DNA from: Armatimonadetes bacterium Uphvl-Ar1
GTDB taxonomy: Bacteria > Armatimonadota > Fimbriimonadia > Fimbriimonadales > Fimbriimonadaceae
Assembly (NCBI GenBank): GCA_002162075.1
Contig: CP021423.1
Coordinates: 1,674,001 to 1,738,000 of the forward strand
Direction of reading: 5' to 3'
Length of the DNA stretch: 64,000 nt
Shown piece after piece: positions 17,938 through 46,158 of this stretch; within the stretch, counting starts at the first letter, position 1, and each line of letters starts with the position of its first letter. The notes under the pieces were generated by a model that was given only the letters and a program-made list of their open reading frames with translations, had not been told where the DNA came from and searched no databases. A program made the translations under genes and the position numbers.

Positions 17938-18254
17938 GGCTTTTCCTCTTCAAGAACCGCATCAATCCAGCTAAGGCAAGCCATCATGTGCGGGAATCCC
18001 AACGTCGGCGCGGCGAGCAAAGCAGCATGGCGCAACTCCTCAACGGTCGCTCCAGCTTGGAGGGCCTTGTGAGCATGGCTCTTTGCCCCCCCTTCGAGAC
18101 GGGCTCCGAAAGACATCGCGAGTTTCATGAGGCATCGGGTCTTTTCGTCGAGCGGGCCTGCGGTTGCCACTGTCTCCCCAAAGGTCTCGTAGGCCTTCCC
18201 GACCTCGGGAAAGTCTTCAAAGAACCGAACATATCGTTTTGGCAACCGTGCCAT
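17934..18254 (-). CDS. Carboxymuconolactone decarboxylase/AhpD-fold protein lacking Cys
   Basis: 106 residues from the ATG at 18254; the TTG at 18260 is an alternative. The helical CMD core is clear (KTRCLMKLAMSFGARLEGGAKSHAHKALQAGA, given here only as a region at about residues 40-70). The CxxC of AhpD peroxidase enzymes is absent, and a His pair (SHAH) sits nearby. I take it as a small redox or scaffold protein of the nitrate module, function unknown. ATG at 18254 is 42.5 bp from the centre of the Fnr-type palindrome at 18290. The stop overlaps the NarI-like start. Confidence 0.65.
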   Translation of the reverse strand: MARLPKRYVRFFEDFPEVGKAYETFGETVATAGPLDEKTRCLMKLAMSFGARLEGGAKSHAHKALQAGATVEELRHAALLAAPTLGFPHMMACLSWIDAVLEEEKP

Positions 18255-18264
18255 AGTCAAGAGT

Positions 18265-18873
18265 ATGGAAGGCCAGGTGGGGGCGCATTATGATATCGAT
18301 CATGCTGACCAGTCTTCTGTCTTGTTGACCGGAGGGGCAAGCCGGCGGATGGGCTTCGATAAGGCTTTGATTTCGATGGGAGGCGAGCCGCTTGCCGTCC
18401 GGTTAGCCCGCATTCTGCGGGAAGCAGGCTGGGAACCCACGATCTTGGGCCGCGCCCCCCTTGATGGATACCGCTTTCAACCTGATGATGAGGTTGAGCG
18501 CGGGCCGCTCGCGGCAATTTGTGATTTCGCCCCGACCAGCCAGCTTGTCTTCGTGCTCTCATGCGATGTGCCCCTCTTTGACCGGGCCGTCGCGAGGGCT
18601 CTCAAATCCTGTCTCGGTGAGAAAGAAGCTGCGGTTCCCTCTATCAATGGACGATTGCAACCTTTGTGCGCAGTTTATCGTCGAGGGGCCTGGGAGAGGC
18701 TACGCGATGTTGACTCGCCCAGAATCATTGATTGGGTGGAGGCTTTGGACGCGGAAATCGTCAACGAATCGGACTTGCTACGGCACGGGGTTCAGCCCGA
18801 TTGGTGCAGAGGAGTCAATACGCCGTCGGAGCTCAAGACTTTACTGGAGTCGGCCAATTGGGCGGTCGAATAG
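18265..18873 (+). CDS. mobA: Molybdenum cofactor guanylyltransferase MobA
   Basis: 202 residues. The nucleotidyltransferase P-loop-like motif LLTGGASRRMGFDKAL lies at residues 20-35, then ERGPLAAI and the metal-binding LSCDVPLF. It joins GMP to Mo-molybdopterin to make the bis-MGD cofactor that the nitrate reductase catalytic subunit needs. The ATG at 18265 gives about 15 extra residues before the motif; GTG 18277 or TTG 18322 are alternatives, so the palindrome at 18290 may lie inside or just upstream of it. The 3' end overlaps the convergent Crp/Fnr gene by 82 bases. Confidence 0.85.
   Translation: MEGQVGAHYDIDHADQSSVLLTGGASRRMGFDKALISMGGEPLAVRLARILREAGWEPTILGRAPLDGYRFQPDDEVERGPLAAICDFAPTSQLVFVLSCDVPLFDRAVARALKSCLGEKEAAVPSINGRLQPLCAVYRRGAWERLRDVDSPRIIDWVEALDAEIVNESDLLRHGVQPDWCRGVNTPSELKTLLESANWAVE
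18290..18303. promoter_or_regulatory. Fnr-type palindrome 1 (CMD/NarI operon)
   Basis: ATGAT-ATCG-ATCAT, centre 18296.5. The ATG of the leftward CMD gene (18254) is 42.5 bp away, so a site at -41.5 would place the transcript start at or one base before the ATG. Confidence 0.65.
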
Positions 18874-19544
18874 AGCCCGGCACGATCAAGGATCGTGAGG
18901 CTCTTGTGACCAGCTTGGATCATGCCCGCTTTGTTCCAGCGGGAGGTAATTCTGATGGCACTTTCAACTGTGGTGACGCCTATCTCAGCCAATGCCTTTC
19001 GAGTGAGATGGATCGGAGTCGCCGGGCCATGATCGCGGGCATTGATGTCATCGAGCCGCAAGAGTGCGAGCGCCAAACGAGCTTCAACTTCGCCGGTAGC
19101 CATGGCCGCCATAAATCCGTAGCCTCCTAACATTCGCGTGATAGCCGCACTGGTCGCTTTTCTGAACAACTCTGGGTCATTGAAGGTTGCATCGCGCCAG
19201 GCATCACTGTCAACGATTAGGGCTTCAACATCGGTCAGAGCCAAGCAGGAGAACGGGTGAGTAACGTTACCGAGGGTCGCGAGCAAGCCGGTGCAATCGC
19301 CGGGGCCAAGAAGCTCTACCACCACCTGCTTTCCACAGGGCGCCTTTTGAGTAAGTCTTACCAAGCCGGACACGAGAACACAGAAGAATCTTGCTGGAGT
19401 CCAGCTATGCCAGAGGTAGGAGCCTTCCTCGAATTTGTTCAGCTCGCTGGCGGCTAGGAGGCGGTCTAGGCTCGCAGGGTTGCTGCCAGTTCCGAGGCCA
19501 CAGCCATCCAGAATGGTTCGAATCGAATCAGCAGGTTGCCGCAT
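18792..19544 (-). CDS. Crp/Fnr family regulator A
   Basis: 250 residues: a cyclic-nucleotide-binding-type beta-roll (about 30-130), a long dimer helix, and a C-terminal winged helix with recognition helix TTVESAIRITSRW (about 203-215). The five Cys residues do not match the Fnr iron-sulfur spacing, so the signal sensed may be NO, haem or something else. The recognition helix is nearly identical to that of regulator B (34617), so both may read the ATGAY-N4-RTCAT sites of this module. The start overlaps the NnrS gene end by 17 bases. It is probably co-transcribed from the palindrome at 20937. Confidence 0.8.
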   Translation of the reverse strand: MRQPADSIRTILDGCGLGTGSNPASLDRLLAASELNKFEEGSYLWHSWTPARFFCVLVSGLVRLTQKAPCGKQVVVELLGPGDCTGLLATLGNVTHPFSCLALTDVEALIVDSDAWRDATFNDPELFRKATSAAITRMLGGYGFMAAMATGEVEARLALALLRLDDINARDHGPATPIHLTRKALAEIGVTTVESAIRITSRWNKAGMIQAGHKSLTILDRAGLYSTAQLADSSKVLSSDGVLTPLHQSG

Positions 19545-20901
19545 AGGTCTGGCTCCTTCGTAACAAGAATCGGAGCATCACCGTGGCCCAAATCCCAAGA
19601 CCGAGCAACTCGACAAAGCCGGTCCAGCCCATCGGGGCGAAGGCAGATCGATTCAAGTCCGTGATGATTTCCAAGCCGACCCTTGCCGCATTGCCCACGT
19701 TAAGCAGAATAAAGACGCTCCACAGTGCGGGAACCTTGCGCTCATCCAGCATCAGCATTTTCGTGACCAAGTGGTAGCCAACCGCCACGATCATTTGTGA
19801 AATGAATCCCACCGTAACCGCGTGGCGGATCGCGCCAGTGTAGGCGTGTGAAAACGGAGCGCCTATCGCCCGCAAATGCAGGGGTTCCAAGATTAGAAGC
19901 GCGCCTGCAATTAGCAACCAGGCAAATGCAGAGCGGATGAACTTTTGACTGGGATTGGCATGGCGCACGGGGCTGAAGACACCCAAAGAAAGGGTCATCG
20001 CCCCTGCCCCTAGAGCCAAGAGTACGCCGCCAAATCGAAACCACGTGTCCATACCTGGCATGAGTCCAGATTGAAAATACACGTTCCAGCCCACCACGCG
20101 GACGATCAGCCCACTCGACCAGAGTCCGAATGCGGCAAGGCCCCAACTCGCGTCAGCGGCTCGAAAACCAAGACATCCGGGGAACTTGCTCGCCGCGACG
20201 CCAAAAATCATCATCGCCACAAAGCCCAAAAATTGCAGTTCCCGAAGAGGCGTGAACCATTGGGCGACAAAGGCAATCGACGCCTCTCGGCTCGGCTGGT
20301 GACTGAGCGCAAACACGACGGGCTCGGCAAGAGAGACCAGGAGCAAGCATCCCAACGAGGCGAATACGAACGCAGTCGGCCACGTGAGGGGTTCCGCCTT
20401 GCGGTATCGGTTTGCTCCGATGTTGTAAAGGAACAACGCCACTGCGACGATCTGTAGGCTTGCGGAGGCTGGCCCTAACCAGAGCCAGCGTGAGGCATCT
20501 TGCTGGGCGAGCGGTTCGGCTGCGAATCGCAGCGTAATACCCGTTCCCATGCTGCCTAGAGCCCACCAGGCGATCTTATGAAACGACGCGCTCTTGGCGA
20601 GCGTGGTCCCGTGCTGTTGCATGGCAAACCCCATGACAAAAAAGCCAACCCACCCAAAGAGCTGCGAGTTGGCGTGGGCCAAAACGTAGGGGGTCCAGAC
20701 GGAAGCCGTATAGCTTCCTTGACGAGCGATGCCCATCAAGGAAATCGCCCCGAGCAGGCAACCCACCGTGAGCACGGTGATGATGCCGCATACAAAGAAG
20801 GGGCGGTACACCTGGGTTTCCGCGCGATCCGTGCCCGACTTGGCGACGGGAATCGTCGAACGCATCGGAAGCAGAGTCAACGAAGGCCGCTCTTTGATCA
20901 T
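19528..20901 (-). CDS. nnrS: NnrS family haem-copper membrane protein
   Basis: 457 residues from the ATG at 20901, with about twelve hydrophobic helices. AHANSQLFGWVGFFVMGFA and later HAYTGAIRHAVTVGFISQMI carry the conserved His residues of NnrS, a membrane haem/copper protein linked to protection from nitric oxide and nitrosative stress. The start at 20901 rather than 20910 is preferred because it lies 42.5 bp from the centre of the palindrome at 20937, as for other genes here. It is followed by Crp/Fnr regulator A in the same operon. Confidence 0.8.
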   Translation of the reverse strand: MIKERPSLTLLPMRSTIPVAKSGTDRAETQVYRPFFVCGIITVLTVGCLLGAISLMGIARQGSYTASVWTPYVLAHANSQLFGWVGFFVMGFAMQQHGTTLAKSASFHKIAWWALGSMGTGITLRFAAEPLAQQDASRWLWLGPASASLQIVAVALFLYNIGANRYRKAEPLTWPTAFVFASLGCLLLVSLAEPVVFALSHQPSREASIAFVAQWFTPLRELQFLGFVAMMIFGVAASKFPGCLGFRAADASWGLAAFGLWSSGLIVRVVGWNVYFQSGLMPGMDTWFRFGGVLLALGAGAMTLSLGVFSPVRHANPSQKFIRSAFAWLLIAGALLILEPLHLRAIGAPFSHAYTGAIRHAVTVGFISQMIVAVGYHLVTKMLMLDERKVPALWSVFILLNVGNAARVGLEIITDLNRSAFAPMGWTGFVELLGLGIWATVMLRFLLRRSQTYAATC

Positions 20902-20936
20902 GCTCTTCATTATCGAGGGCTCAGTCGACCGCCGCC

Positions 20937-20950
20937 ATGATGATTGTCAT
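20937..20950. promoter_or_regulatory. Fnr-type palindrome 2 (nnrS)
   Basis: ATGAT-GATT-GTCAT, centre 20943.5, 42.5 bp from the nnrS ATG at 20901. The rightward neighbour ends here, so only the leftward gene is served. Confidence 0.65.
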
Positions 20951-20972
20951 ACCGGGAAAGGCCGCTCGATGG

Positions 20973-22304
20973 CTAGCAGGGTTTTTCAGCCCCTTTTCGG
21001 GAGTAGAACCACCAGTTCAGGCCGATATTGATCACGTAGAAAATGGCAAGGCCTACGAAGAACGGGGCCGCATTACGGCCCGATCCGAGCACCGCGCCCA
21101 GAATCACGCTGAATGCGAACGGCCCGTAAGCGGCAATTGCGGATGTCCAACCGATAACTCCCCCCGCCTGGCGTGGAGGAAAAATCATGGGGATTTGCTT
21201 GAACGTGCTGGCATTACCGATGCCGCTGAAGAAGAAGATGCCGAGCATCAGCCAGAGGAAACCCGTCCAGCTTGTCATTGATGTTGGATTCGCAAATGGC
21301 AGGATCGCGATGCTGCACCCCAGCATCCCAAGACCGCTGACCATCGTGACCTTTGCCCCTCCAACTTTGTCTGCGACTGGCCCTGCGGTAGCGCGGACTC
21401 CAGCACCAACCAGCGGCCCCAAAAACGCAAAGGCCAACGGATCAGGTGCGCCATCGAATCCGCCGTAGAGTTGCTTGATCATTAGCGGAAATGCAGCTGC
21501 TAGGCCACTAAACGACCCGAAGGTCATGACGTAGAGTGACGTCATGACCCACGTGTGCTTTTCCTTGAAGATATCGAGTTGCTCCCTAAAGCTTGCCTGA
21601 ACCGGCACGTCCCGAAGCCCAAACCAAGCGACCACAGCACCTAAGAGCACAAGAGGCACCCAAATCAGTGCCCCGTTCTGAAGATAGATGTTGCTGGTCG
21701 CACCGGTCTTGGGGTTCGTCAGAGTTTGCGAACCACCCATAAGGGCGATCCCGATAATGGCGGGGATGAGGAACTGGGCAACACTTACGCCGAAGTTGCC
21801 GATTCCCGCTTGAATCCCCAGCGCCGTGCCTAACTTTGACTTAGGAAAAAACAACGATGTGCTCGGCATGAACGAACTGAAGTTGCCCCCACCCAAACCG
21901 GCGAGAAAGGCCAGAACCAAAAAGGTAGAGAGCGGAGTCTGAGGGTTCATGACCGCGAACCCCCAACCCACGCAGGGGATCGCCAAGAGAAGCGTCGATA
22001 CACTCACGGTCTTGCGCGTTCCAAATATGGGGATGAGAAAAGTGTGGACAATGCGCAAAGTTCCGGCAGCTAATCCAGGCATGGCGGTCAGCCAGAATAG
22101 TTCCTGTGGAGCGAACTTGAATCCAATCCCTGAGAGCTTCACGACCAGAGCGCTCACCATAAACCAGGTGGAAAAGCTAAGGAGAAGGCAGAACGTGGTG
22201 ATCCAGAGGGTGCGCCAGGCGACCGGCTTTGCGGTTGACTCCCAAAAGGCAGGGTCATTGGGTTGCCATTCTTGAACTATTGGGGCTTCGGTTTGATTAT
22301 TCAT
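20973..22304 (-). CDS. narK: NarK-type nitrate/nitrite transporter 1
   Basis: 443 residues, twelve predicted helices of the major facilitator superfamily. The NarK nitrate signature region is visible as AGLGGGNFSSFMPSTSLFFP near residue 135, with a second GIFFFSGIGNASTFKQIPMI near residue 360. It imports nitrate and/or exports nitrite. A 17-base leader is expected from the palindrome at 22356, containing a GGAGG-like site, so this is the one gene of the set that does not look leaderless. It works with the reductase and the second NarK encoded in the module. Confidence 0.88.
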   Translation of the reverse strand: MNNQTEAPIVQEWQPNDPAFWESTAKPVAWRTLWITTFCLLLSFSTWFMVSALVVKLSGIGFKFAPQELFWLTAMPGLAAGTLRIVHTFLIPIFGTRKTVSVSTLLLAIPCVGWGFAVMNPQTPLSTFLVLAFLAGLGGGNFSSFMPSTSLFFPKSKLGTALGIQAGIGNFGVSVAQFLIPAIIGIALMGGSQTLTNPKTGATSNIYLQNGALIWVPLVLLGAVVAWFGLRDVPVQASFREQLDIFKEKHTWVMTSLYVMTFGSFSGLAAAFPLMIKQLYGGFDGAPDPLAFAFLGPLVGAGVRATAGPVADKVGGAKVTMVSGLGMLGCSIAILPFANPTSMTSWTGFLWLMLGIFFFSGIGNASTFKQIPMIFPPRQAGGVIGWTSAIAAYGPFAFSVILGAVLGSGRNAAPFFVGLAIFYVINIGLNWWFYSRKGAEKPC

Positions 22305-22355
22305 GGGTCGGACTCGTTGCCTCCCTCATTGTCGACGATCCGCAACAGACGCGCT

Positions 22356-22369
22356 ATGATGCCCGTCAT
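22356..22369. promoter_or_regulatory. Fnr-type palindrome 3 (narK 1)
   Basis: ATGAT-GCCC-GTCAT, centre 22362.5, 58.5 bp from the narK ATG at 22304. Flanking bases extend the symmetry (CTATGAT, GTCATAG). Confidence 0.65.
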
Positions 22370-22433
22370 AGAATCTCAAATCGCCGAAGCACCAATCAGC
22401 CAATGCGCTTTGGTGAGCGCGCTAATCCGCCGA

Positions 22434-23921
22434 CTACTCTGTAGCCGGTGCCTGCTTCGCCATCTTGAGGATCGTGACGTGCATCCAAACCAGGCACACA
22501 ACACTTATGAGTGCAAGGAGGAGCCAGCAAGAAGTCCAGAGTCCCGTCACTTTAAGGAGGTAGCCGAAGAGAATGGGGCACACAAATCCACCTAGCCCAC
22601 CGATGACCCCTACGATTCCACCAACAACGCCAACATCATTCGGAAAATAGTCGGGAATGTGGCGATACACGGCGGCCTTACCGATCCCCATCATGATTCC
22701 CGCCAAGAAAACGATGGTCGTGAACACCCACACGTTGGCCTGAAAGTAAACGTGAGTCACCCCACGGGCTAGAAGCTCTCGCTTCTTAACCTTTTGGCCC
22801 ACTTGCACCACCGGCTCTTGCCAGGACTGACTTCGGGGGAGGATGATCGTGCCCTCAGAAAGACTTGAACCCTTGCTCGACAGGGTTTGAGTCGAGCCAC
22901 GGGCCATCTTCAAACCATACGACTTATCATCAATTTGAACCCGATCTTGACCGACCTGCGTGACGGTTCCGGCTCGATCGGCCAAAACTCCTTCCCCTGG
23001 GGACATGATGTCCATGCGTGGCGCGATGACTAGCGCGAACAAAACCACGCAGCTCGCCAGCACCCAGTACATCGTAGCCCTGGCCCCAAACTTATCGCTC
23101 ATCCACCCTCCAAGCGCACGAACCAAACCGCTCGGAAGGCTAAAGATGCTCGCCATGAGACCCGCCATTGCGAGGCTCATTCCATAGACGCTGAGATAGT
23201 AAGGTACGAGCCATTGAGCCAGGGCGACGAAAGCCCCAAAGACAAGAAAGTAGTACGCGCCGAATCGCCACACTCGGACGGACTTGAGAGGGGCAAGCAT
23301 GGTGCGAATCGTCTTTTGGCTGGCTCCTTCCGTGACCCTGTTCTTTGTTAAGAGCGCAAACAGGATCGTCATTCCAAACAGACATGCCGCATAAATCAGA
23401 GGCAAAGTTCGCCACCCTTCCAATTCGTTTCCCTCTTGAGTGAGTCTTTGCAGTGCGAGCGGAGCCAGCAGCGTTGTCAAAGCCGAACCCGCGTTTCCAA
23501 CGCCAAAGATGCCGAGCGCGGTTCCTTGCTTTTCCTTGGGAAAAAACACGGACGTGTATGCGATGCCGACCGCGAAAGCCGCTCCACTCATCCCAAAAAT
23601 GAGCCCCGAGATCACGAGATGGACGAACGTGGTTGCGAAGCTTACCGATGCAACTCCGGCAGTCGCAAGTAGCATCACGCCGATGTAGACCGGCTTGCCC
23701 CCAAAACGGTCCGTGAGTAGCCCGACCGGCAACCGCATGATCGATCCCGTGAGAATGGGGACACCTAGGAGCCAACCGAGTTGTTCTTTAGAAATTGGGA
23801 AGACCTGCTTATCGGCCAAAAAAGCCCCCAGCACACCGTACATCGTCCACACGGCAAAGCACACCGTGAAGGCAATCGTGTTGAGGGTGAGCATGCGGTT
23901 GGCAAGGGCTCGATCTGGCAT
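22434..23921 (-). CDS. narK: NarK-type nitrate/nitrite transporter 2 with inserted extracytoplasmic domain
   Basis: 495 residues, MFS. The family loop motif DRFGGKP is at 71-77 and GGWMSDKFGAR at 271-281; the nitrate signature region is GMSGAAFAVGIAYTSVFFP near 110-128. Unlike transporter 1 it has about 90 extra residues (302-392) between helices 9 and 10, on the periplasmic side. The end of the insert, VVQVGQKVKKRELLARG, resembles the beta-turn of a lipoyl/barrel-sandwich hybrid fold. The ATG at 23921 lies exactly 41.5 bp from the palindrome at 23956, shared with moaA on the other side. Confidence 0.85.
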   Translation of the reverse strand: MPDRALANRMLTLNTIAFTVCFAVWTMYGVLGAFLADKQVFPISKEQLGWLLGVPILTGSIMRLPVGLLTDRFGGKPVYIGVMLLATAGVASVSFATTFVHLVISGLIFGMSGAAFAVGIAYTSVFFPKEKQGTALGIFGVGNAGSALTTLLAPLALQRLTQEGNELEGWRTLPLIYAACLFGMTILFALLTKNRVTEGASQKTIRTMLAPLKSVRVWRFGAYYFLVFGAFVALAQWLVPYYLSVYGMSLAMAGLMASIFSLPSGLVRALGGWMSDKFGARATMYWVLASCVVLFALVIAPRMDIMSPGEGVLADRAGTVTQVGQDRVQIDDKSYGLKMARGSTQTLSSKGSSLSEGTIILPRSQSWQEPVVQVGQKVKKRELLARGVTHVYFQANVWVFTTIVFLAGIMMGIGKAAVYRHIPDYFPNDVGVVGGIVGVIGGLGGFVCPILFGYLLKVTGLWTSCWLLLALISVVCLVWMHVTILKMAKQAPATE

Positions 23922-23955
23922 GACTCAGTTATGGCCTGCACTCTCGGCGAGGTTT

Positions 23956-23969
23956 ATGATAGATGTCAT
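23956..23969. promoter_or_regulatory. Fnr-type palindrome 4, divergent (narK 2 and moaA)
   Basis: ATGAT-AGAT-GTCAT, centre 23962.5. The leftward narK ATG (23921) and the rightward moaA GTG (24004) are each exactly 41.5 bp away. At -12 to -7 of each start lie CATAAC (left) and CACAAT (right), passable -10 boxes. One dimer could therefore drive two leaderless transcripts. Confidence 0.75.
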
Positions 23970-24003
23970 GGTTCCACGCGGCGACCTGCCGCACAATCCA
24001 ACC

Positions 24004-24996
24004 GTGACCACACGAGCGGACCTGCTGACGGACCGGTTTGGTCGATTCCACGACTACCTGCGGGTGTCGATCACGGATCGATGCAACTTTCGGTGCGTCT
24101 ATTGCATGCCCGAAGAAGGCGTGGCCTGGCAACCGCGCGAAGATATCTTGACTTTCGAGGAGATCGAACGGTTAGCTCGGTTTTTCGTTGAGCGTGGCGT
24201 GCGGAAGATTCGGCTTACCGGCGGCGAACCATCTCTCCGCAAGGGCTACCTCAACCTCGTTGAAGCGCTTGCCGCCATTCCGGGTTTAAGGCAACTTGCT
24301 CTCACAACCAACGGAACCCGCTTGGCCCAAGACGCGGTAGCGCTCAAGGCGGCTGGACTGGCAAGCGTAAATGTGAGTTTGGATACACTGCGGCAGGATC
24401 GCTTCCTTGAGATCACGCGGCGCGACGAGTTACCCAGGGTTCTCCAAGGAATTGAGGCCGCCCATGCGGCGGGACTAAAGATCAAGGTCAACGTGGTGGT
24501 CCTGCCCGGAGTGAATGAGGATGAGATCATCCACTTTGGCGAGTTTGCCTGCGAGCACAGCCTCACCGTGCGATTCATTGAATTTATGCCGTTTCTGGAC
24601 AATGGTTGGAGCGCAGAGCGGGTCGTCACTTCTGCAGAGATTCGTGCTCGACTCTCGAATCAATTTGAGCTTCAACTCCTTGCCTCTGGGGCCTCGGATC
24701 TTGCCCGGGAGTATGCAATCAACGGCTCCGAGGGCCGGGTCGCCTTTGTCTCAAGCGTGACCGAGAGCTTTTGTTCAGGCTGCAATCGCCTTCGCTTGAC
24801 GGCAGACGGACAGCTCAAATCGTGTCTCTTCCTACCGCCGAGCGTCTCTTTGCGGGACTTGATTCGAGGAGGAGCACCCGACGCAGAACTGGAGACAGCT
24901 GTGCAGGAGTGCCTCGATGGCAAGTGGAGCGCCCATCCACCGATGCGAAACTGGGCTCAACGAGATAACTTAACCATGGTGCAAATCGGCGGATGA
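24004..24996 (+). CDS. moaA: GTP 3',8-cyclase MoaA
   Basis: About 330 residues. Radical-SAM motif CNFRCVYC near the N-terminus, GGEPSLR, and a C-terminal second cluster CSGCNRLRLTADGQLKSCL. It begins molybdopterin synthesis from GTP. Its C-terminus ends IGG, close to the GG end known for MoaA. I choose the GTG at 24004 because it is 41.5 bp from the palindrome centre and begins right before the conserved LTDRFGR segment. The ATG at 23968, inside the palindrome, is the alternative and adds 12 residues. It heads a run of overlapping genes to 29427. Confidence 0.92.
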   Translation: MTTRADLLTDRFGRFHDYLRVSITDRCNFRCVYCMPEEGVAWQPREDILTFEEIERLARFFVERGVRKIRLTGGEPSLRKGYLNLVEALAAIPGLRQLALTTNGTRLAQDAVALKAAGLASVNVSLDTLRQDRFLEITRRDELPRVLQGIEAAHAAGLKIKVNVVVLPGVNEDEIIHFGEFACEHSLTVRFIEFMPFLDNGWSAERVVTSAEIRARLSNQFELQLLASGASDLAREYAINGSEGRVAFVSSVTESFCSGCNRLRLTADGQLKSCLFLPPSVSLRDLIRGGAPDAELETAVQECLDGKWSAHPPMRNWAQRDNLTMVQIGG

Positions 24997-25895
24997 GAAA
25001 CGTTTCCTTTAAGAACACGACCAAGCGAACGGCCCTCGCACGTGCTGAACTCACGGCGAGCGCGGAGACGATTCGCCGCGTCCAGAATGGCGACACGCCC
25101 AAGGGCGATCCGGTCCCCGTCGCCAAGGTTGCGGCTATCCAGGCGACGAAGAAAACAACCGAGTGGATTCCTTACTGCCACAACATCCCAATTGAGCATG
25201 TGCGGGTGGAGTTTGAGTTCCTAGCAGACCGGATCGCGGTCGAGGTCTTCGTTGTTTCCGTAGCCAAGACCGGGGTCGAGATGGAGGCCATGACCGGGGC
25301 CGCTGCCGCCGTGCTCACCCTCTACGACATGCTGAAAATGATCGACGACGACATGGAAATCGTCGGCGTTCGCCTGCTCTCAAAGACAGGCGGTAAGAGC
25401 GATCTTCCCAAGCGCAGTGACTGGAGCGCGCAAGTGCTGGTGATGTCAGATCGAGCGCATCGCGGCGGTTACGACGATCGAAGCGGCCCAAGTCTTGAGC
25501 AGGCGCTCATGGACCACGGCGCGGGCTCTGTCTCGGTCAAAGTTCTGCCCGATGAATCGGATTTGCTGGTCGATGAGGTTCGAGCTGCCGCTGAAAGAGG
25601 TATCTCATTCCTCGTGATCACCGGGGGCACGGGAGTTGGCCCGAGGGATATCACTTCTGATTCAATCGCACCGCTCCTCGAAAAAAGCCTTCCTGGTGTA
25701 GTCGCGGCATTCCAGTCCTACAGCCACTCACGGCTTCCGACCGCGATGTTCGCCAGGCCAATCGCTGGGATCATTGGTCAAACGGTTGTGCTGGCAATTC
25801 CGGGCAGTCCGGGAGCTTGCGAGGATGCCATGGCCTGCCTGATGCCGAGCCTGTTGCATGTTCATTCGATGCTCGCCGGGGAGGGCCACCCGTGA
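24993..25895 (+). CDS. moaC-moaB: Fused MoaC-MoaB molybdopterin protein
   Basis: 300 residues in two domains. Residues 1-140 are MoaC (cyclic pyranopterin monophosphate synthase): KGDPVPVAKVAAIQATKKT, PYCHNIPIEHV, VEMEAMTGAAAAVLTLYDM. Residues about 146-300 are MoaB/MogA (adenylation of molybdopterin): VLVMSDRAHRGGYDDRSGPS, LVITGGTGVGPRDITSD, IPGSPGACEDAM. One protein thus covers two steps of the pathway. It overlaps moaA at its start and moeA at its end by four bases each. Confidence 0.9.
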   Translation: MRNVSFKNTTKRTALARAELTASAETIRRVQNGDTPKGDPVPVAKVAAIQATKKTTEWIPYCHNIPIEHVRVEFEFLADRIAVEVFVVSVAKTGVEMEAMTGAAAAVLTLYDMLKMIDDDMEIVGVRLLSKTGGKSDLPKRSDWSAQVLVMSDRAHRGGYDDRSGPSLEQALMDHGAGSVSVKVLPDESDLLVDEVRAAAERGISFLVITGGTGVGPRDITSDSIAPLLEKSLPGVVAAFQSYSHSRLPTAMFARPIAGIIGQTVVLAIPGSPGACEDAMACLMPSLLHVHSMLAGEGHP

Positions 25896-27052: not shown

Positions 27053-27291
27053 AGACCGTCACAATCCGCTATTTTGCCGTCCTGCGAGAGCGCCGTGGGC
27101 TTGCCGTTGAACAGAAAACGACCTCATGCGAGACCGTGCGCGAACTCGTCGATACGCTCATCGCCGAGCACCGGCTCGGTCTTCCGTCCGCACTGATTCG
27201 GGTTGCCATTGACCATGAGTTTGTCGATCCAGCTGACCCACTGCAAGAAGGAAGTGAACTTGTTCTGATTCCCCCGGTGGCAGGCGGATGA
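27049..27291 (+). CDS. moaD: Molybdopterin synthase sulfur-carrier subunit MoaD
   Basis: 80 residues from the ATG at 27049 (overlap ATGA, GGAG upstream). Ubiquitin-like fold: TIRYFAVLRERRGL at the start and the C-terminal PPVAGG, whose last Gly is made into a thiocarboxylate by the MoeB-type enzyme. It forms MPT synthase with MoaE, which is encoded as part of the next fused gene. Confidence 0.92.
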   Translation: MKTVTIRYFAVLRERRGLAVEQKTTSCETVRELVDTLIAEHRLGLPSALIRVAIDHEFVDPADPLQEGSELVLIPPVAGG

Positions 27292-28694
27292 AGTTCTCAC
27301 TAAGCGATGCCCAGATTGCCGCTGAGCCGATAGCCCACGATGCGGCGGGCGGATTTGTCGTCTTTGAGGGCAAAGTACGCAATCACGCCGAGGGGCGGTC
27401 CGTTGTTGGGCTCGAGTATGAGGCATTCCCCGAAATGGCCCTTTCCCAGGGGGAAGCGCTTGTTCAAGAGGCCATCGAGCGGTTTGGGCTCTTGGAAGCA
27501 AGAGTGATCCATCGCGTCGGTCAACTCGCCATCGGGGACACGGCGGTCGTGGTTCAAACCGCATCGGCCCACCGGCGAGAGGCCTTTGAAGCCTGCGAGT
27601 GGATCATGGATCAACTCAAATGCCGGGTTCCCATTTGGAAGCGCGAAACCTACGCCAGCGGGGTCTCCGAGTGGGTTGTCCCTGGTGAAGCCTCTTCTAG
27701 CCTGGTGGACGATGAGATGTTCGCCCGGCAAATGCGGCTTCCCGAAATCGGACCCGAGGGTCAAGCGTCGCTTGCCGGGGCAAGGGTATTGCTGGTCGGG
27801 GTTGGGGGCCTGGCGGCAGGGAGCCTGCCTTCACTGGTGGGATCAGGCATCGGGACGCTGGGCCTGGTAGACGCCGACCTGGTTGAACTCTCGAATCTTC
27901 ATCGCCAAACCCTGTTTGCCTCCTCGGATGTCGGGCGATTGAAAGTCGAACGTGCCGCGGTATTCGCGCGTCGTCTCCGGCCCCAACTTGCGGTCCACGC
28001 ATTTCCCGTGCGCCTCTCTGAAGCCAATGCCGAACAACTCATTTCCGGCTACGACTGGATCGTGGACGGAACCGATTCCCTAAGCACCAAGCTCTTGCTC
28101 GACCGCGTTTGCCAGAGCCTCGGCCGCCCCCTCGTCTCTGCCAGCGTCCACCAATTTGAGGGCCAACTGATGACAGTTCGGCCTGGAGGGTCGTGCCTCG
28201 CCGATCTCTTCCCGGAACCACCGCCCGACCACTGCGTTGGAACTTGCGCCCAATCCGGAGTGCTTGGCGTTGTTCCCTCGTTGATGGGGGTTCTACAAGC
28301 GAACGAAGTCATCAAAGGCATCCTTGGGCTACCGGTCTTGGACGACAAATTGCTCTTGTTTGATTTCCGCACCTTAGAAGCAACCATGATCCGTCGCACG
28401 GTATCCGGCGAACGCAGTTCCGGGGGCAGTGTTTGGGATGTTGATGCGGTCTCGATCAATCTTGAAAATTTCGATCTTGTGGATATTCGGGAGCCAGACG
28501 AAACTCCCGAGATCAACCAGCCTCATCGACGTGTGCCGATAGCGAAGTGCTACGAGGCGGAATGGGAACGACCTACCTTATTCGTTTGCGCCTCCGGAAG
28601 GCGTAGTTACCGCCTAGTAGCCGACCTCAGGGCACGGGGTGTTCGCGACGTCTTCTCGCTCCAAGGAGGAGTCGAGTATCTTGAACGTGATTGA
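27288..28694 (+). CDS. Triple fusion MoaE-MoeB-rhodanese
   Basis: 468 residues in three domains. MoaE (1-130) has GGFVVFEGKVR, AHRREAFEACEW and VPIWKRETYASG with the catalytic Lys. The E1-like MoeB/ThiF domain (about 143-370) has LLVGVGGLAAG and DADLVELSNLHRQTLF, and a Cys in TCAQSGVLG (Cys320). The rhodanese domain (about 385-468) has the active loop FVCASGRRSYR (Cys434). MoeB activates MoaD and rhodanese supplies sulfur, so the fusion joins all MoaD-charging and MPT-synthase steps. The paired Cys that bind zinc in standard MoeB are missing: SCLADL stands where CxxC is expected, and the later pair is absent. Confidence 0.88.
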   Translation: MKFSLSDAQIAAEPIAHDAAGGFVVFEGKVRNHAEGRSVVGLEYEAFPEMALSQGEALVQEAIERFGLLEARVIHRVGQLAIGDTAVVVQTASAHRREAFEACEWIMDQLKCRVPIWKRETYASGVSEWVVPGEASSSLVDDEMFARQMRLPEIGPEGQASLAGARVLLVGVGGLAAGSLPSLVGSGIGTLGLVDADLVELSNLHRQTLFASSDVGRLKVERAAVFARRLRPQLAVHAFPVRLSEANAEQLISGYDWIVDGTDSLSTKLLLDRVCQSLGRPLVSASVHQFEGQLMTVRPGGSCLADLFPEPPPDHCVGTCAQSGVLGVVPSLMGVLQANEVIKGILGLPVLDDKLLLFDFRTLEATMIRRTVSGERSSGGSVWDVDAVSINLENFDLVDIREPDETPEINQPHRRVPIAKCYEAEWERPTLFVCASGRRSYRLVADLRARGVRDVFSLQGGVEYLERD

Positions 28695-29427
28695 GCCTTG
28701 GCTCTTTATCGGGGTCTTCGCCGTGGCCCTTGGCTACAGTATGGTCGGCCATGGCGGAGCCTCGGGATACCTCGCTCTGCTTGCATTCACCGCGATTCCA
28801 AGCGCGGTCGGGGCCACGACGGCGCTCGTTCTCAACGTCTTTGTCGCGGGTATCACCCTGGTGGTTTTTGGACGAGCGAAGCACTTTGATTGGAATCTTG
28901 CATGGACGCTCTTGCTGGGTTCGATTCCCTTTGCCTTCCTAGGCGGTCGCCTCAAGTTTGAGAATCGAACCCAAGACCTCATACTTGCCGTGGTGCTTCT
29001 TTATGCCGCTGGAGTGCTGATCTTCAGCGTCCCCGCGAAAGACGGCGAGAGCCAACCACCTGTTCGTCCTATCCTCGTGGGGTCGGGGGCTGGCATTGGT
29101 TTCTTGAGCGGGCTTGTCGGGGTCGGCGGAGGGATTTTCTTGTCTCCGCTGATGATCCTGAATCGGTGGGCGCAGCCGCACAAGGTGGCGGCCCTTTCGG
29201 CAGGATTCATCTTCGCGAACTCGCTGGCCGGTCTCTCGGCTCGACCCTTTGATCTCCTGCGAGAAAGCCTGAGTCTCTGGCCGCTGATCACCGTTGGCAT
29301 TCTTGGCGCAGTCGGTGGCAGCTTCCTCGGAGCCCATCGAGTATCAAGTCTTGCCCTGCGGCGAGCCTTGGGATTGGTTTTGTTGCTTGCGGTGGGAAAG
29401 CTACTCCAGAAGGGGCTGGGGCTATGA
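28681..29427 (+). CDS. TSUP (TauE/SafE) family membrane transporter
   Basis: 248 residues from a TTG at 28681, eleven bases after AAGGAGG; GTG 28687 is an alternative. About eight hydrophobic helices. The family hallmarks are an N-terminal GYSMVGHGGASGYLALLA and a mid-protein repeat GFLSGLVGVGGGIFLSPLMI. Members move sulfite, sulfonates or other sulfur-containing anions. In a molybdopterin operon it may deal with sulfur supply, or it could carry an anion linked to nitrate use. The substrate is not visible from sequence. Confidence 0.8.
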   Translation: MNVIEPWLFIGVFAVALGYSMVGHGGASGYLALLAFTAIPSAVGATTALVLNVFVAGITLVVFGRAKHFDWNLAWTLLLGSIPFAFLGGRLKFENRTQDLILAVVLLYAAGVLIFSVPAKDGESQPPVRPILVGSGAGIGFLSGLVGVGGGIFLSPLMILNRWAQPHKVAALSAGFIFANSLAGLSARPFDLLRESLSLWPLITVGILGAVGGSFLGAHRVSSLALRRALGLVLLLAVGKLLQKGLGL

Positions 29428-29437
29428 CGCCTGTCAT
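29424..29437. promoter_or_regulatory. Fnr-type palindrome 5 (nitrate reductase)
   Basis: ATGAC-GCCT-GTCAT, centre 29430.5, exactly 41.5 bp from the ATG at 29472. TAAACT at 29460-29465 occupies -12 to -7. The outer bases extend the symmetry (GGGGCTATGAC, GTCATAGCCCC), so the same sequence could also form the terminator hairpin of the preceding gene. Confidence 0.75.
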
Positions 29438-29471
29438 AGCCCCAACCCCCCAGCGAGACTAAACTTCAGAT

Positions 29472-31655
29472 ATGGCTAAGCCCCCTGTCTCAGTCGAGAA
29501 GCTGATCGAAGATTTCGGTCCGCACCCCGCTCACACGCCCCCCGGCGGTTGGGTGGGCAGGGATGATCCCGACAAGCTGGTGAAGACGCACTGTTGCTTC
29601 TGCGGCATGCAGTGCGGCATCCAGTTGAAGGTGAAGAAAGACCAGGTCATCGGCTTCGAGCCGTGGGAAGAGTTTCCGTTCAACAAGGGCAAGTTGTGCC
29701 CTAAAGGTGTGAAGCGATACCTGCAAGGAGGCCACCCTGATCGACTGCTCAACCCGATGAAAAACGTGCCGGGCCAAGGATTCATCTCGATCTCTTGGGA
29801 AGAAGCCTTCAGCACCACCATTAAGGCCATTCAGGACGTTCGGGCCAAAAACGGCAAGGACTCCGTAGCCTTTCTCTCTGGCGTTTCTCTCACCAATGAA
29901 AAGAGTTATCTGATCGGGAAATTCGCACGACTCGGATTGCAGACCGCCAACCTCGACTACAACGGTCGCTTATGCATGGTGAGCGCCGGGGCCGGGAACA
30001 AGAAGGCGTTCGGGCTTGACCGAGCCTCAAACTACTGGGAAGATATTGTCCATGCTGAGGTGATTCTTCTGGCCGGAACTAACGTGGCCGAGTGCTCGCC
30101 CATCACGACCGATTACATCTGGCGGGCCCGGGATCGCGGCGCGAAACTGATCGTGATTGATCCACGCGTGACGCCCATCGCCCGCACCTGCGATCTTCAC
30201 CTCCCTGTTCTCCCAGGAACGGATTCGGCGCTGTTGCTTGGCATTCTCCGGGTTCTCATTGAAGAAGGCCTGACGAACGAAGAGTTTATCGCTGAATACA
30301 CTTCGGGTTGGGAAGAAACGAAGGCGGCGGCCCTTGCCCTTCCGCTGGAAGAGGCGAGCCGAATCAGTGGGATCAAGGTCGAAGACATCGTTCGGGCCGG
30401 AAAAATGTGGGGCGAAGCGAAGACCAGCTTCCTGATGCACGCCCGAGGGATCGAGCACAGTTCCAAAGGCGTGGACAATGTGGTTAGCTGCATCAACCTC
30501 GTTCTTGCCACCGGACGAATCGGGCGCAAAGGCTGCGGATACGCAACTATCACAGGCCAAGGCAATGGTCAAGGAGGGCGCGAACACGGCCACAAGTGCG
30601 ACCAACTCCCCGGCAATCGGGATATCTCTAACCCGGCTCACCGTGAGTACATCTGCTCGGTATGGGGCTGCACCGATGAAGAACTCCCGGGCAAAGGCCA
30701 CACCGCACCCGAGATCATGGAAATGATCCACGCCGGTGAGATCAAAGCCCTCATCTCTATTTGCTTCAACCCGCTCGTGTCGCTTCCGGACTCCAACTTC
30801 ACCCGAGAGGCTCTCAATAAACTGGAGCATTACACGGCCATCGACTTCTTCCTAAATGAAACAGCTCACCATGCCGATATTGTCATGGCCGGATCGCTTC
30901 ATGAAGAGGAAGAGGGAACCAGCACCAGCGCCGAGGGACGGGTGATTCGGATCAAAAAGGCGGTGAATCCTCCGGGTAACGCGAAAGCCGACACCGACAT
31001 CATTCTGGAACTCGCGCGGCGACTCGGACGAAGCAAGTTCTTCGACCACTTCAAGACGTCGGAGGACATTTTCAATGAGCTGCGAGTGGCCAGTAAGGGT
31101 GGCACGGCCGATTACTTCGGCATCACCTACGAGCGAATCGAGAATGAACTCGGCGTCTTTTGGCCCTGCCCCGAAATTGGCCACCCGGGCACCCCTCGCC
31201 TGTGGGAGGACCTGAAGTTCAAGACCCCAGACGGCAAAGCCCACTTCAATGCTGTGAAGTACCGGCCACCGCTGGAAGAACCGGATGACGAGTATCCGGT
31301 GGTTCTGACGACCGGACGCGTAGTATCGCACTATCTCAGCGGAACGCAAACCCGCCGAATAGGAGGCTTGGTCGATCTCTGTCCTGATCCCTACGTGGAG
31401 ATTCACCCGACGTTGGCCGCAAGATACGGCATCGCCGACAAGGACTGGATGCGAGTCACCAGTCGGCGTGGCGAAGTCGTGCTCCAGGCCAAGGTGGTCA
31501 CCACGATTCGCCCGGACACCGTTTTCATCCCGTACCACTGGCCCGGGCGCAAGGCGGCAAACAATCTCACCATCCGCTCCTACGATCCCGTCAGTGGCAT
31601 CCCTGAATACAAACGGGCGTGCGTGAAGATCGAGAAGTCTGAGCCGCCGCAATGA
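29472..31655 (+). CDS. Assimilatory-type nitrate reductase catalytic subunit (Mo-bis-MGD, 4Fe-4S)
   Basis: 727 residues. The N-terminal 4Fe-4S ligands are Cys41, Cys44, Cys48 and Cys76 (CCFCGMQC, KLCPKG). The probable Mo ligand is Cys168 in NGRLCMV, as in NasA/NarB/NapA rather than NarG, which uses Asp. Further motifs are GTNVAECSPITTDYIW, VIDPRVTPIA and the C-terminal VVLTTGRVVSHYLSGTQTRR. No twin-arginine signal is present, so it is cytoplasmic. Its neighbours are a Rieske protein, a four-cluster ferredoxin-like protein and, at a distance, a NarI-like cytochrome b, which suggests quinol-fed rather than ferredoxin-fed nitrate reduction. The start is leaderless by the palindrome rule. Confidence 0.88.
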   Translation: MAKPPVSVEKLIEDFGPHPAHTPPGGWVGRDDPDKLVKTHCCFCGMQCGIQLKVKKDQVIGFEPWEEFPFNKGKLCPKGVKRYLQGGHPDRLLNPMKNVPGQGFISISWEEAFSTTIKAIQDVRAKNGKDSVAFLSGVSLTNEKSYLIGKFARLGLQTANLDYNGRLCMVSAGAGNKKAFGLDRASNYWEDIVHAEVILLAGTNVAECSPITTDYIWRARDRGAKLIVIDPRVTPIARTCDLHLPVLPGTDSALLLGILRVLIEEGLTNEEFIAEYTSGWEETKAAALALPLEEASRISGIKVEDIVRAGKMWGEAKTSFLMHARGIEHSSKGVDNVVSCINLVLATGRIGRKGCGYATITGQGNGQGGREHGHKCDQLPGNRDISNPAHREYICSVWGCTDEELPGKGHTAPEIMEMIHAGEIKALISICFNPLVSLPDSNFTREALNKLEHYTAIDFFLNETAHHADIVMAGSLHEEEEGTSTSAEGRVIRIKKAVNPPGNAKADTDIILELARRLGRSKFFDHFKTSEDIFNELRVASKGGTADYFGITYERIENELGVFWPCPEIGHPGTPRLWEDLKFKTPDGKAHFNAVKYRPPLEEPDDEYPVVLTTGRVVSHYLSGTQTRRIGGLVDLCPDPYVEIHPTLAARYGIADKDWMRVTSRRGEVVLQAKVVTTIRPDTVFIPYHWPGRKAANNLTIRSYDPVSGIPEYKRACVKIEKSEPPQ

Positions 31656-31930
31656 ACGGGCCTTCGCGCTGGAACCGTTCTCTCGGGATCATAATGACGG
31701 CCCGCATCTCGCTCGGGTGCTCAAACAAGAGCGTCCAGAGGTTCCCGCGCTGGCTGGCGAGGCTTGGGAGTTGTGAGCTTGCCGACCACTTTGCCGAAGA
31801 GGAGCGACTCCTCGGCCCGCTGGCAAGCGGCGATTCCGCTAAACGATTGGCTCAGGAAGCTCTCAAAAATGGACCATCGCCTGTGGGGGACCTGCCCAAA
31901 CCAGACGGAAACTGTGCAACCCCGGCTTGA
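31652..31930 (+). pseudogene. Decayed hemerythrin-like (HHE) gene
   Basis: The annotated frame starts in ATGA overlap with the reductase, but its first 35 residues look random. The neighbouring frame reads FALEPFSRDHNDGPHLARVL, the usual opening of an HHE hemerythrin domain, and stops at WEL; the first frame then continues ELADHFAEEERLLGPLA, the expected second helix with its HxxxE. An extra T at about 31771 would join these, and another indel near the start is needed. Non-haem iron HHE proteins often accompany nitrate/NO genes. The gene seems broken twice, or the sequence has errors. Confidence 0.45.
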
Positions 31931-31956
31931 CCGCCTTCATTCCAGCGCTTAACGAC

Positions 31957-32190
31957 TTACTCCATCTTCATCAGCCGCTTCACCCCGGCGAGCATCCAGA
32001 TGTTGACGCCAAGAATCAAGAAACTGAACGCTGAGGCTTGAATCACCATGTCAGTTTTTCCGGCCAAGCTGTTCTCGAGCACCATCACGAACAGCCAAAG
32101 CTGGATGAGAAACAGGATCAACGCAAACAGCAAGAACCCGACGAAGACGACTGCCTTTTGGCGACGACGATGGAATTGCGGCGTATTCAT
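31957..32190 (-). CDS. Small two-helix membrane protein
   Basis: 77 residues with two long hydrophobic helices (AVVFVGFLLFALILFLIQLW and ASAFSFLILGVNIWMLAG) and basic ends. It overlaps the Rieske gene by one base and is the last gene of the Fe-S/Rieske operon, so it is probably a membrane anchor or assembly subunit of the same complex. No named family is recognised. Confidence 0.65.
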   Translation of the reverse strand: MNTPQFHRRRQKAVVFVGFLLFALILFLIQLWLFVMVLENSLAGKTDMVIQASAFSFLILGVNIWMLAGVKRLMKME

Positions 32191-32687
32191 CAGTGGTTAC
32201 CCTTGATCGCGCCTATCGCCCAGATCTCGCTGTCGCGAACTTCAATTTTCACTTGAGGTAAAGGATGAGGTGGTGGCCCTTGGATCACGCTCCCATCCTC
32301 TAGAGAAAATGCGCCATGGTGGCAAGGACAGTAAAGGAGTTCGCGCTCGTTCTTGACTTCGTACTCTACAGGGCAGGACAGATGTGTACATCGACGTTTA
32401 TAAGCAACAAACTCACCATTCTGTTTTCGAACGAGAATACACAAATCAACCGGTCGAGGATAGCTGAAAGCCAGGGCGGAACCTGGCTTCAAATCTTCAG
32501 TCGAGCATATCTTTGCGGCCTCAAACTTGATTTCTTCCCTCGGAATTTGGGCGTAAGCCGCCAGTGCCGCCGTGCCAACCGCTACACCACCACTCGCTAA
32601 CGTGAGAAACTTGAAGAACTCACGGCGGGTCACAAAGTGGTCGTCTTCCCACTCAATCGGAAAATCTTCTTTCAGTTTATCGTTCAT
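32190..32687 (-). CDS. Rieske 2Fe-2S protein with Tat-type signal
   Basis: 165 residues. The N-terminus carries a twin-arginine motif TRREFFKFL followed by a hydrophobic stretch (LASGGVAVGTAALAAYA), so it is exported and probably stays anchored. The Rieske cluster motifs are CTHLSC and CPCHHG, each with the Cys and His ligands, followed by the GPPPHPLPQ loop. It carries electrons on the outer face of the membrane. Its place between a ferredoxin-like subunit and a small membrane protein implies a quinol-oxidising complex linked to nitrate reduction. Confidence 0.88.
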   Translation of the reverse strand: MNDKLKEDFPIEWEDDHFVTRREFFKFLTLASGGVAVGTAALAAYAQIPREEIKFEAAKICSTEDLKPGSALAFSYPRPVDLCILVRKQNGEFVAYKRRCTHLSCPVEYEVKNERELLYCPCHHGAFSLEDGSVIQGPPPHPLPQVKIEVRDSEIWAIGAIKGNH

Positions 32688-32693
32688 CTTGGA

Positions 32694-33299
32694 TTAGCAC
32701 TCCACTTGCCGCACGGCGGTCAATAGGTCAGTTCGGCGAACAACGGCATCGGGCATAACCGTGAGCCGTCTTGCCCCTTGAGGCATCATGAGGTGAACCT
32801 TGGTGGTGATCTTCTTGTCGCCAAATATGAACTCGTTGATCGGGGTTCCTGATCGTTCGGCGGCGAGTTCTTCGGGCGTACCGTAGAACAGAGCACCGGA
32901 AGGGCAAACCGTAGCGCACATGGGTTTTAGGCCGATGGACGTGCGGTCGTAGCACATGTCGCACTTCATCATCTGGTCAACCTCAACGTCGTATTTGGGT
33001 ACTCCGAATGGACAAGCGAACAGGCAATTAGTGCACCCGATACACCTTGGTTTAAGCGAGCTTTGCACGACTCCATTGGGGGTTTTTTTGATGGCGTCCG
33101 CCGGACAAACCATCGCGCAGGCGGGCTCGTCACAATGCATGCAAATGATCGGAGTGGTCTGCACGGTATCAGCGCGCTGTACTTGCTCTAAGTGGATCAT
33201 CGAGACGCCCGGGTGAGTGTCGCACTCGGCACACGCCTGAACGCAGGCATTACAACCGATGCACCGGCTTGGGTCTATGTAGAACTGCCGCTCACTCAC
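32694..33299 (-). CDS. Four-cluster 4Fe-4S electron-transfer subunit (NarH/DmsB-like)
   Basis: 201 residues from a GTG at 33299. Four Cys groups follow the DmsB/NrfC pattern: [35 protein letters not shown] and CDMCYDR with CATVC. Such subunits pass electrons between a membrane cytochrome and a molybdenum subunit. The GTG is 42.5 bp from the palindrome centre at 33341.5, again a leaderless start. It is followed by the Rieske gene. Confidence 0.88.
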
Positions 33300-33334
33300 A
33301 ACGACTATGGTTGCACGCCGAGCAACCGCCCAAC

Positions 33335-33348
33335 ATGATATCCATCAT
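33335..33348. promoter_or_regulatory. Fnr-type palindrome 6 (Fe-S subunit operon)
   Basis: ATGAT-ATCC-ATCAT, centre 33341.5, 42.5 bp from the GTG at 33299 of the leftward Fe-S gene. Confidence 0.7.
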
Positions 33349-33396
33349 AAAGCCGGGAGCACCTAGTTGAAGCTCGCTCTTCGGATCATTCCACAT

Positions 33397-33410
33397 ATGA
33401 TCGATGTCAT
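33397..33410. promoter_or_regulatory. Fnr-type palindrome 7 (porin)
   Basis: ATGAT-CGAT-GTCAT, centre 33403.5, exactly 41.5 bp from the porin ATG at 33445. TAAAGAT lies at the -10 position. Sites 6 and 7 are 62 bp apart and each serves one of two divergent genes. Confidence 0.7.
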
Positions 33411-33444
33411 AGAAATCCAAGAAGCAATCAGTAAAGATTGACTC

Positions 33445-34614
33445 ATGCCGATCCCTTTGGATAACTTCGACAGTCGCGACATTCAGATCAAGCCAATACT
33501 GGAGTTTCGCGCCAGGTACGAGCGGCGGTTGGATTCGGACTTTCAACCCGACCGGGGTGATAATCGAAGCAACCTGTTGCTCCGAGGTCGAGTCGGTCTG
33601 CAAATGAGTAGAGACGGTCTCACCGGCAGAATCGTGTACCAACACGCGAGCTCCCTGAACTGGCTCCCTGCCGGAAACGGTATTGCGATCCGAAGCGATC
33701 TTCTTGAGGCCAACGTCAGCTTCAAAAGTGGAGGGACTACCTACACTCTCGGGCGGCAACGTTTCGGGTTGGGCAATCGAAGGCTCATCGGCGAACTAGA
33801 ATGGAACAATGTTGCCAATGCCTTCGAGGGCCTCAAGGTTGAAGACCGAACTTGGACCTTTTTCCTGATGCGTGCAGGCGTGTTGCCAACTCCCTCGAAG
33901 GGTTTAGTTTTATCAGGAGTCAGCTTCAAGAGGGCGTCCAACACGACGGCGCTTATCATCAAGGTTGATGATGCGAAGGGGGTAGATCAGACTCGGTATA
34001 CGCTTTCGAACGAGGGAACGCTGAAGCCGAATGCGAAAACGACCATGAATTATCAAATCGCCTTCCAGGCGGGTCATCAGGACGGGAAAAGCGTCCAAGC
34101 TTGGGCGGCAAATGGAAGGTACGGGATGGAAATCACGCCAAAGGTAGAGGCGTACAGCGAACTTAACATCGCCAGCGGCGGCAGTAGTAATCGAGTCAAC
34201 GCCACTTTTGATCAGCTTTATCCCAGTGGGCATGATCGGCTTGGATTGATGGACACAACCGGGTGGAAGAACATTGTTTCTGCAACCGCCGGAGTGAAGT
34301 TCAAACCAAGTGCCAATTCGTCTCTCCGGCTCAGTTACACCTGGCTACAGCTTTACGACAAGCGTGACTCTTGGTACGGAGTAGGCGGAGCGATCAATGC
34401 CTTTGGCGCAACACTCTATAGAGATCCAACCGGGAACTCCGGTCGCGATATTGGGCAAGAGTTCAGTCTGGATTACTCTTCGACGTTGGCCAATGGCTTC
34501 ACCTTGAGTGGTGGTGCTGGAGTCTTTCTTCCTGGTCGGTTTGTGAAATCTTTCGGTGGAACCAGGTCTGGGAATCAGACTTTCGGATACGTGATGCTCG
34601 GCTGGAAATTCTAA
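33445..34614 (+). CDS. Alginate-export-type outer-membrane porin, no visible signal peptide
   Basis: 389 residues of alternating strands (for example RYERRLDSDF, LLLRGRVGLQMS, GRIVYQHASSLNWL) ending in YVMLGWKF with a terminal Phe, the pattern of AlgE/alginate-export family barrels. These often act as nitrate or anion porins in such gene clusters. The N-terminus MPIPLDNFDSRDIQ has no hydrophobic signal, and a stop lies just upstream in frame, so the protein as read should not be exported. Either export is unusual or the start was altered. Confidence 0.7.
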   Translation: MPIPLDNFDSRDIQIKPILEFRARYERRLDSDFQPDRGDNRSNLLLRGRVGLQMSRDGLTGRIVYQHASSLNWLPAGNGIAIRSDLLEANVSFKSGGTTYTLGRQRFGLGNRRLIGELEWNNVANAFEGLKVEDRTWTFFLMRAGVLPTPSKGLVLSGVSFKRASNTTALIIKVDDAKGVDQTRYTLSNEGTLKPNAKTTMNYQIAFQAGHQDGKSVQAWAANGRYGMEITPKVEAYSELNIASGGSSNRVNATFDQLYPSGHDRLGLMDTTGWKNIVSATAGVKFKPSANSSLRLSYTWLQLYDKRDSWYGVGGAINAFGATLYRDPTGNSGRDIGQEFSLDYSSTLANGFTLSGGAGVFLPGRFVKSFGGTRSGNQTFGYVMLGWKF

Positions 34615-46040: not shown

Positions 46041-46158
46041 CGTATAAAGAACGTTACCTGGGAAAATTACTGAATGAGCAAATATATTTTTCTTACCCTA
46101 ACCAATGTTAACACCATGTCTGACCCAGACTAGCGAAACCCCCAAACCCCTCAAAAAA

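Follow-up and report, generated by a model that had tools for sequence, protein, structure and literature searches.

The promoters that most resemble those described here are the class II promoters of Escherichia coli FNR and CRP, in which the activator's palindrome covers the -35 region and its centre lies 29.5/30.5 bp from the -10 element. Another precedent is the PRM promoter of phage lambda; the cI mRNA transcribed from PRM is leaderless, and CI activates this promoter from OR2, centred near -42. NnrS is commonly regulated by NnrR, and DNR, NNR and NarR are Crp/Fnr-family regulators that have no clear iron-sulphur (Fe-S) cysteine set and control nitrate, nitrite and nitric oxide (NO) genes, including nnrS. 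According to one prediction, 21.6% of bacterial species have leaderless transcription (PMC9581028); Deinococcus and mycobacteria are known cases (PMC9031893). Our literature search found no relevant report of it in the Armatimonadota or Fimbriimonadales (a subscription paper could hold one), and for leaderless transcription combined with a CRP class II promoter at -41.5 it gave only an unrelated Streptomyces study. Here we analyse a nitrate gene cluster of Armatimonadetes bacterium Uphvl-Ar1 (Armatimonadota, Fimbriimonadales), which lies in a 64-kb stretch of DNA (the window; positions 1674001-1738000 of a single 2,985,450-bp contig) and contains seven palindromes of the form ATGAY-N4-RTCAT. 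We propose that these palindromes are, very probably, the operators of a Crp/Fnr-family class II activator of a nitrate-respiration regulon, and that the mRNAs of seven of its eight genes are leaderless.

The cluster resembles the E. coli class II systems in the position of the palindrome and of the -10-like hexamer, in the presence of Crp/Fnr-family genes and in its nitrate-respiration targets. It differs in that the start codon falls at the predicted transcription start site (TSS), with no leader that carries a Shine-Dalgarno (SD) sequence. In this respect it is closer to lambda PRM, where the activator site also lies about 42 bp before a start codon that is itself the TSS. However, PRM drives one phage gene and its activator is unrelated, whereas here the arrangement recurs in a multi-gene nitrate regulon across genera. 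The host genome at large also resembles leaderless-rich clades such as Deinococcus and mycobacteria, in that its first genes have a -10-like hexamer at -12 and seldom an SD sequence.

The window contains exactly seven copies of the palindrome, all within the nitrate cluster, compared with 0.21 matches expected in shuffled windows; no shuffle reached seven. We recomputed how far each start codon is from its site centre, and the distances were 42.5 bp for the carboxymuconolactone decarboxylase (CMD) family gene, nnrS and the Fe-S subunit gene, and 41.5 bp for narK2, moaA (from a GTG), nasC and the porin gene. The sole exception among the eight genes is narK1, 58.5 bp from its site centre. The site at 23956 serves the divergent genes narK2 and moaA and lies exactly 41.5 bp from each start codon. 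A preliminary description of this DNA had given the seven positions, the two spacings and the narK1 exception, and all of these were borne out. If the TSS is placed 41.5 bp from the site centre, the predicted leader is the centre-to-start distance minus 41.5; all eight -10-like hexamers then land exactly at -12 to -7, and the predicted leaders are 0-1 nt in seven of the eight genes and 17 nt in narK1. The features are as follows.

18290..18303 (centre 18296.5): putative operator ATGATATCGATCAT of the CMD gene, conserved before CMD orthologs at two loci of relatives (L070, L164)
18262..18267, minus strand: -10-like CATACT of the CMD promoter; predicted TSS 18255
17934..18254, minus strand: CMD gene (PF02627); revised ATG at 18254, predicted leader 1 nt
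18792..19544, minus strand: crpA, Crp/Fnr-family regulator (Pfam cNMP_binding and HTH_Crp_2), helix TTVESAIR
20937..20950 (centre 20943.5): putative operator ATGATGATTGTCAT of nnrS
20909..20914, minus strand: -10-like GATAAT of nnrS; predicted TSS 20902
19528..20901, minus strand: nnrS-like gene; revised ATG at 20901, predicted leader 1 nt, start kept in L068 and L069
22356..22369 (centre 22362.5): putative operator ATGATGCCCGTCAT of narK1
22328..22333, minus strand: -10-like GACAAT of narK1; predicted TSS 22321
20973..22304, minus strand: narK1, NarK-family nitrate/nitrite transporter (TIGR00886, E 2e-88, below the curated cut-off); predicted leader 17 nt
23956..23969 (centre 23962.5): putative shared operator ATGATAGATGTCAT of narK2 and moaA; 41.5/41.5 arrangement kept in L065-L069
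23928..23933, minus strand: -10-like CATAAC of narK2
22434..23921, minus strand: narK2, NarK-family transporter (TIGR00886, below cut-off); predicted leader 0 nt
23992..23997, plus strand: -10-like CACAAT of moaA
24004..24996, plus strand: moaA, GTG start (TIGR02666, above cut-off), first of the molybdenum-cofactor genes; predicted leader 0 nt
29424..29437 (centre 29430.5): putative operator ATGACGCCTGTCAT of nasC, kept in most relatives examined
29460..29465, plus strand: -10-like TAAACT of nasC
29472..31655, plus strand: NasC-like nitrate reductase catalytic subunit (best match NF047855, 800 bits, under the cut-off of 1100); predicted leader 0 nt
33335..33348 (centre 33341.5): putative operator ATGATATCCATCAT of the Fe-S subunit gene
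33307..33312, minus strand: weak -10-like AACCAT of the Fe-S gene, in a stretch conserved in relatives; predicted TSS 33300
32694..33299, minus strand: 4Fe-4S ferredoxin subunit (DmsB/FDH-beta like), GTG start; predicted leader 1 nt
33397..33410 (centre 33403.5): putative operator ATGATCGATGTCAT of the porin gene
33433..33438, plus strand: -10-like AAAGAT of the porin gene
33445..34614, plus strand: outer-membrane porin-like protein (Alginate_exp family, PF13372); predicted leader 0 nt
34617..35318, minus strand: crpB, Crp/Fnr-family regulator (Pfam PF00027 and PF13545), the best candidate reader of the operators

The consensus can be weakly extended to T-ATGAY-N4-RTCAT-A/G. An exact match to the FNR-type palindrome TTGAY-N4-RTCAA was not found in the window. 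Across the 2.985-Mb contig, ATGAY-N4-RTCAT occurs at 21 sites. The 14 that lie outside the cluster are mostly inside open frames and their number is near chance (about 9.8 expected genome-wide, P = 0.12). At none of them does a plausible gene start lie 41.5/42.5 bp away, and we rejected these palindromes as further targets on that ground.

Conservation in relatives extends the pattern beyond one genome. We fetched some 30 loci; the relatives with the nitrate reductase that carry names are Armatimonadetes/Fimbriimonadales assemblies (FIMBRI1, SZAS-8, TGS_ARM1, Fimbriimonas sp. and others). The palindrome is kept before orthologous genes even where the spacers have diverged. After spacers at least 70% identical had been dropped, in-frame starts peaked at 41.5 bp (27), 42.5 bp (19) and 43.5 bp (6), while other distances typically had about two each. 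The three revised starts of the preliminary description (18254, 20901 and 24004) hold in these relatives as well: the moaA GTG is kept at 41.5 bp, and nnrS and CMD starts lie at 41.5-43.5 bp. The nasC homologs of Bacteroidota and Verrucomicrobia do not share the site: some 70 such loci yielded a single upstream match to its core.

The arrangement also recurs at the scale of the order. We searched 113 genomes of the Fimbriimonadales (the class-level set is identical) for the operator followed by 22-23 bp, NANNNT, 6-7 bp and RTG, and took as control a version of this pattern whose first gap was 10 bp shorter. The full pattern gave 193 matches in 61 of the 113 genomes, and the control gave 26 in 21. 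In the host genome the counts were seven, as many as the predicted leaderless promoters of the cluster, and one. Among the genes matched elsewhere are narK, nnrS, mobA, genes for ResB-like proteins, and those of a second molybdopterin oxidoreductase and its Fe-S subunit; they belong mainly to the same physiology. Additionally, the pattern is present in 52 of 58 genomes with a strong crpB ortholog and in nine of the 55 others (Fisher p about 5e-16), whereas the shifted control shows no association with crpB (p 0.63). These counts and the co-occurrence with crpB support the proposal that the palindromes mark a regulon.

Several points weigh against our interpretation. Orthologous promoters are not fully independent even after the spacer filter. 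In the ortholog comparison the start nearest 42 was taken where several were possible, although a count of all starts gives the same peak. The -10 of the Fe-S gene is weak, and the exact pattern is absent from six of the genomes with crpB. Last, the search covered exact palindromes.

Both candidate regulators, CrpA and CrpB, match PF00027 (cNMP-binding-like) and PF13545 (Crp-type helix-turn-helix) above the gathering scores. Their recognition helices read TTVES(T/A)IR, and the signature E-x-x-I-R is found in both window proteins and in every CrpB-type protein that we read out. E. coli FNR has E209, S212 and R213 at the corresponding positions and reads TTGAT. Thus the system here differs from FNR in the half-site (ATGAY rather than TTGAT) and in the helix (E-x-x-I-R rather than E-x-x-S-R), and this suggests that the isoleucine at FNR's serine position may go with the changed outer base of the half-site. 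The same helix and half-site set the window regulators apart from DNR, NNR and NarR, which they resemble in family, in having no clear Fe-S cysteine set and in their predicted nitrate, nitrite and NO targets, nnrS among them. CrpB has no N-terminal cysteine and CrpA has one, so that the Fnr-type cluster is absent from both, and the NCBIfam FNR model scores 64.6 against CrpB, far under its cut-off of 228. The palindromes had been called Fnr-like; the name is apt for their TGA-N6-TCA core, but not for the outer base, which is A instead of T, nor for the cysteine cluster, which neither protein has. For the latter reason 'Fnr' should not be read here as an Fe-S oxygen sensor, and NO or another redox cue may be the signal just as well as oxygen.

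It is possible, but on balance unlikely, that the palindrome is read mainly by CrpA and not by CrpB, or that each protein reads its own subset. CrpA carries the same signature (TTVESAIR) and its gene follows nnrS with overlapping ends; moreover, one genome (G060) has three pattern matches with a crpA-like gene only. On the other hand, three genomes (G001, G002 and G051) retain the sites and crpB but have no close crpA ortholog. A further genome (G085) has crpA and no match to crpB, and there the cluster contig ends near the expected place of crpB. On the simplest reading, the operator is recognised by both paralogs. The crpA and nnrS genes share 17 bases (19528-19544), at the start of the first and the end of the second; crpA is therefore probably cotranscribed from the nnrS operator and would be autoregulated. 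The start of crpB (35318, minus strand) has CAAACT just before its ATG and no palindrome, so it looks leaderless and not under the nitrate operator.

We have built a model on the sites, their spacings, the -10 positions, their conservation and the statistical link to crpB, and from these we infer binding, activation, the 5' ends, leaderless translation and the signal, which may be nitrate, NO or low oxygen. In this model CrpB, and probably its paralog CrpA too, would bind the palindromes as an activator. The dimer, centred 41.5 bp upstream of the TSS, would stand in for a -35 element and recruit RNA polymerase to the -10 hexamer at -12 to -7, which is class II activation. Transcripts of seven of the eight genes would begin at the start codon or one base before it and so be leaderless, whereas that of narK1 would have a leader of 17 nt.

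The class II placement had been deduced from the spacing of the start codons, and the relatives support it in a different way. A -10-like hexamer begins at spacer index 22/23, which is 29.5/30.5 bp from the palindrome's centre, in the groups with starts at 41.5, 42.5 and 43.5 bp and also in those with longer leaders, where it is found in 10 of 22 cases. As the -10 position is constant across the distance groups, the predicted TSS follows the palindrome and not the start codon. Thus, the key result is that most start codons appear to have been placed on a TSS set by the operator.

There is a small chance that these are the same class II promoters with 5' ends a few bases upstream, or heterogeneous ones, so that the leaders would be about 3-8 nt long. 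TSS choice is known to vary by a few bases in bacteria, and some -10 hexamers begin at index 22 with a start at 42.5 or 43.5 bp. However, in the largest class of starts (27) the expected TSS coincides exactly with the start codon, and few starts in the relatives lie 44.5-50.5 bp from the site. There is also no room for an SD sequence, and SD-like motifs are found in seven of 52 leaderless cases but in eight of 11 long-leader genes.

That the palindrome serves a repressor, or acts on translation, we consider very unlikely. Position alone is no proof of activation, and RNA polymerase could be blocked by a site at -41.5, since this overlaps the -35 region. However, the -10 keeps the spacing from the site that class II promoters have, one site is 41.5 bp from both divergent genes, and a -35 consensus is mostly absent beside the site; where the operator is present, matches to TTGACA are mostly two to three of six. 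A sigma-70 promoter scan of the region gave no excess over shuffles, which is consistent with the missing -35 elements and is not informative alone. Two nasC loci of relatives, both without the operator (L058 in G083 and L063 in G082), instead have TTGACC, 18 bp and TATCAT, with the ATG 5 bp further on. Here a near-consensus -35 apparently takes the operator's place and the -10 lies beside the ATG, as would be expected under class II activation; the observation was made post hoc. Last, a common short palindrome that happens to lie near genes, with three starts re-chosen to fit it and 14 other copies that look like background, would hardly give this density in the cluster or this conservation over diverged spacers, and chance is refuted by the shifted-control genome scan.

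Leaderless starts fit this organism. In 18 stretches of 20 kb (360 kb) of the host genome and the flanks of the window, first genes of transcription units had a -10-like hexamer at -12 from the start 19 times, compared with a background of four, and showed no SD peak. The gene calls were crude, so this count is a lower bound. As to whether LEADERLESSNESS is special here, it seems not: the regulon looks to follow a general habit of the genome. Thus the leaderlessness first proposed for these genes is supported, with predicted leaders of 0-1 nt in seven of eight genes and starts peaking at 41.5-43.5 bp clade-wide, but it is not peculiar to the regulon. A bolder version would be that the operator fixes the starts of transcription and translation jointly, that selection holds the 41.5-43.5 bp distance across many genera, and that leaderless initiation itself regulates nitrate genes beyond what a leaderless-rich genome entails, for example through a preference of 70S ribosomes under oxygen limitation; we regard this as improbable.

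Some observations concern individual genes. If its first ATG (18265) is used, mobA (18265-18873, plus strand) overlaps the CMD operator; no mobA start lies at 41.5/42.5 bp from this site in the window, and in a relative (L271) mobA is preceded by an operator of its own, at 41.5 bp. The name nnrS comes from an ortholog (L265) that matches Pfam NnrS at 28.1 bits (cut-off 28); the window protein has no Pfam match. NasC (29472-31655; L041-L064 in relatives) is 93-98% identical between genera of the family, while copies in G004 and G006, two members of the host's own genus, are 78% identical; this suggests that the cluster has moved between genera. The GC skew is strongly negative over window positions 44000-64000 (about -0.22 to -0.31) and near zero before.

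Each component described here is of a known kind. What is new, as the comparisons of genomes support, is class II activation joined to leaderless starts in a conserved multi-gene nitrate regulon, with an operator and a recognition helix that would be particular to it. A rule at the level of DNA predicts operators, transcription starts and translation starts jointly, in a phylum of which few species have been described. The rule corrects gene starts, and it names a candidate regulator in which an altered E-x-x-I-R helix is paired with an altered ATGAY half-site. It also indicates that the Fimbriimonadales are a leaderless-rich clade. If our model is true, classical activator geometry works without any leader and has been conserved in this form over dozens of species.

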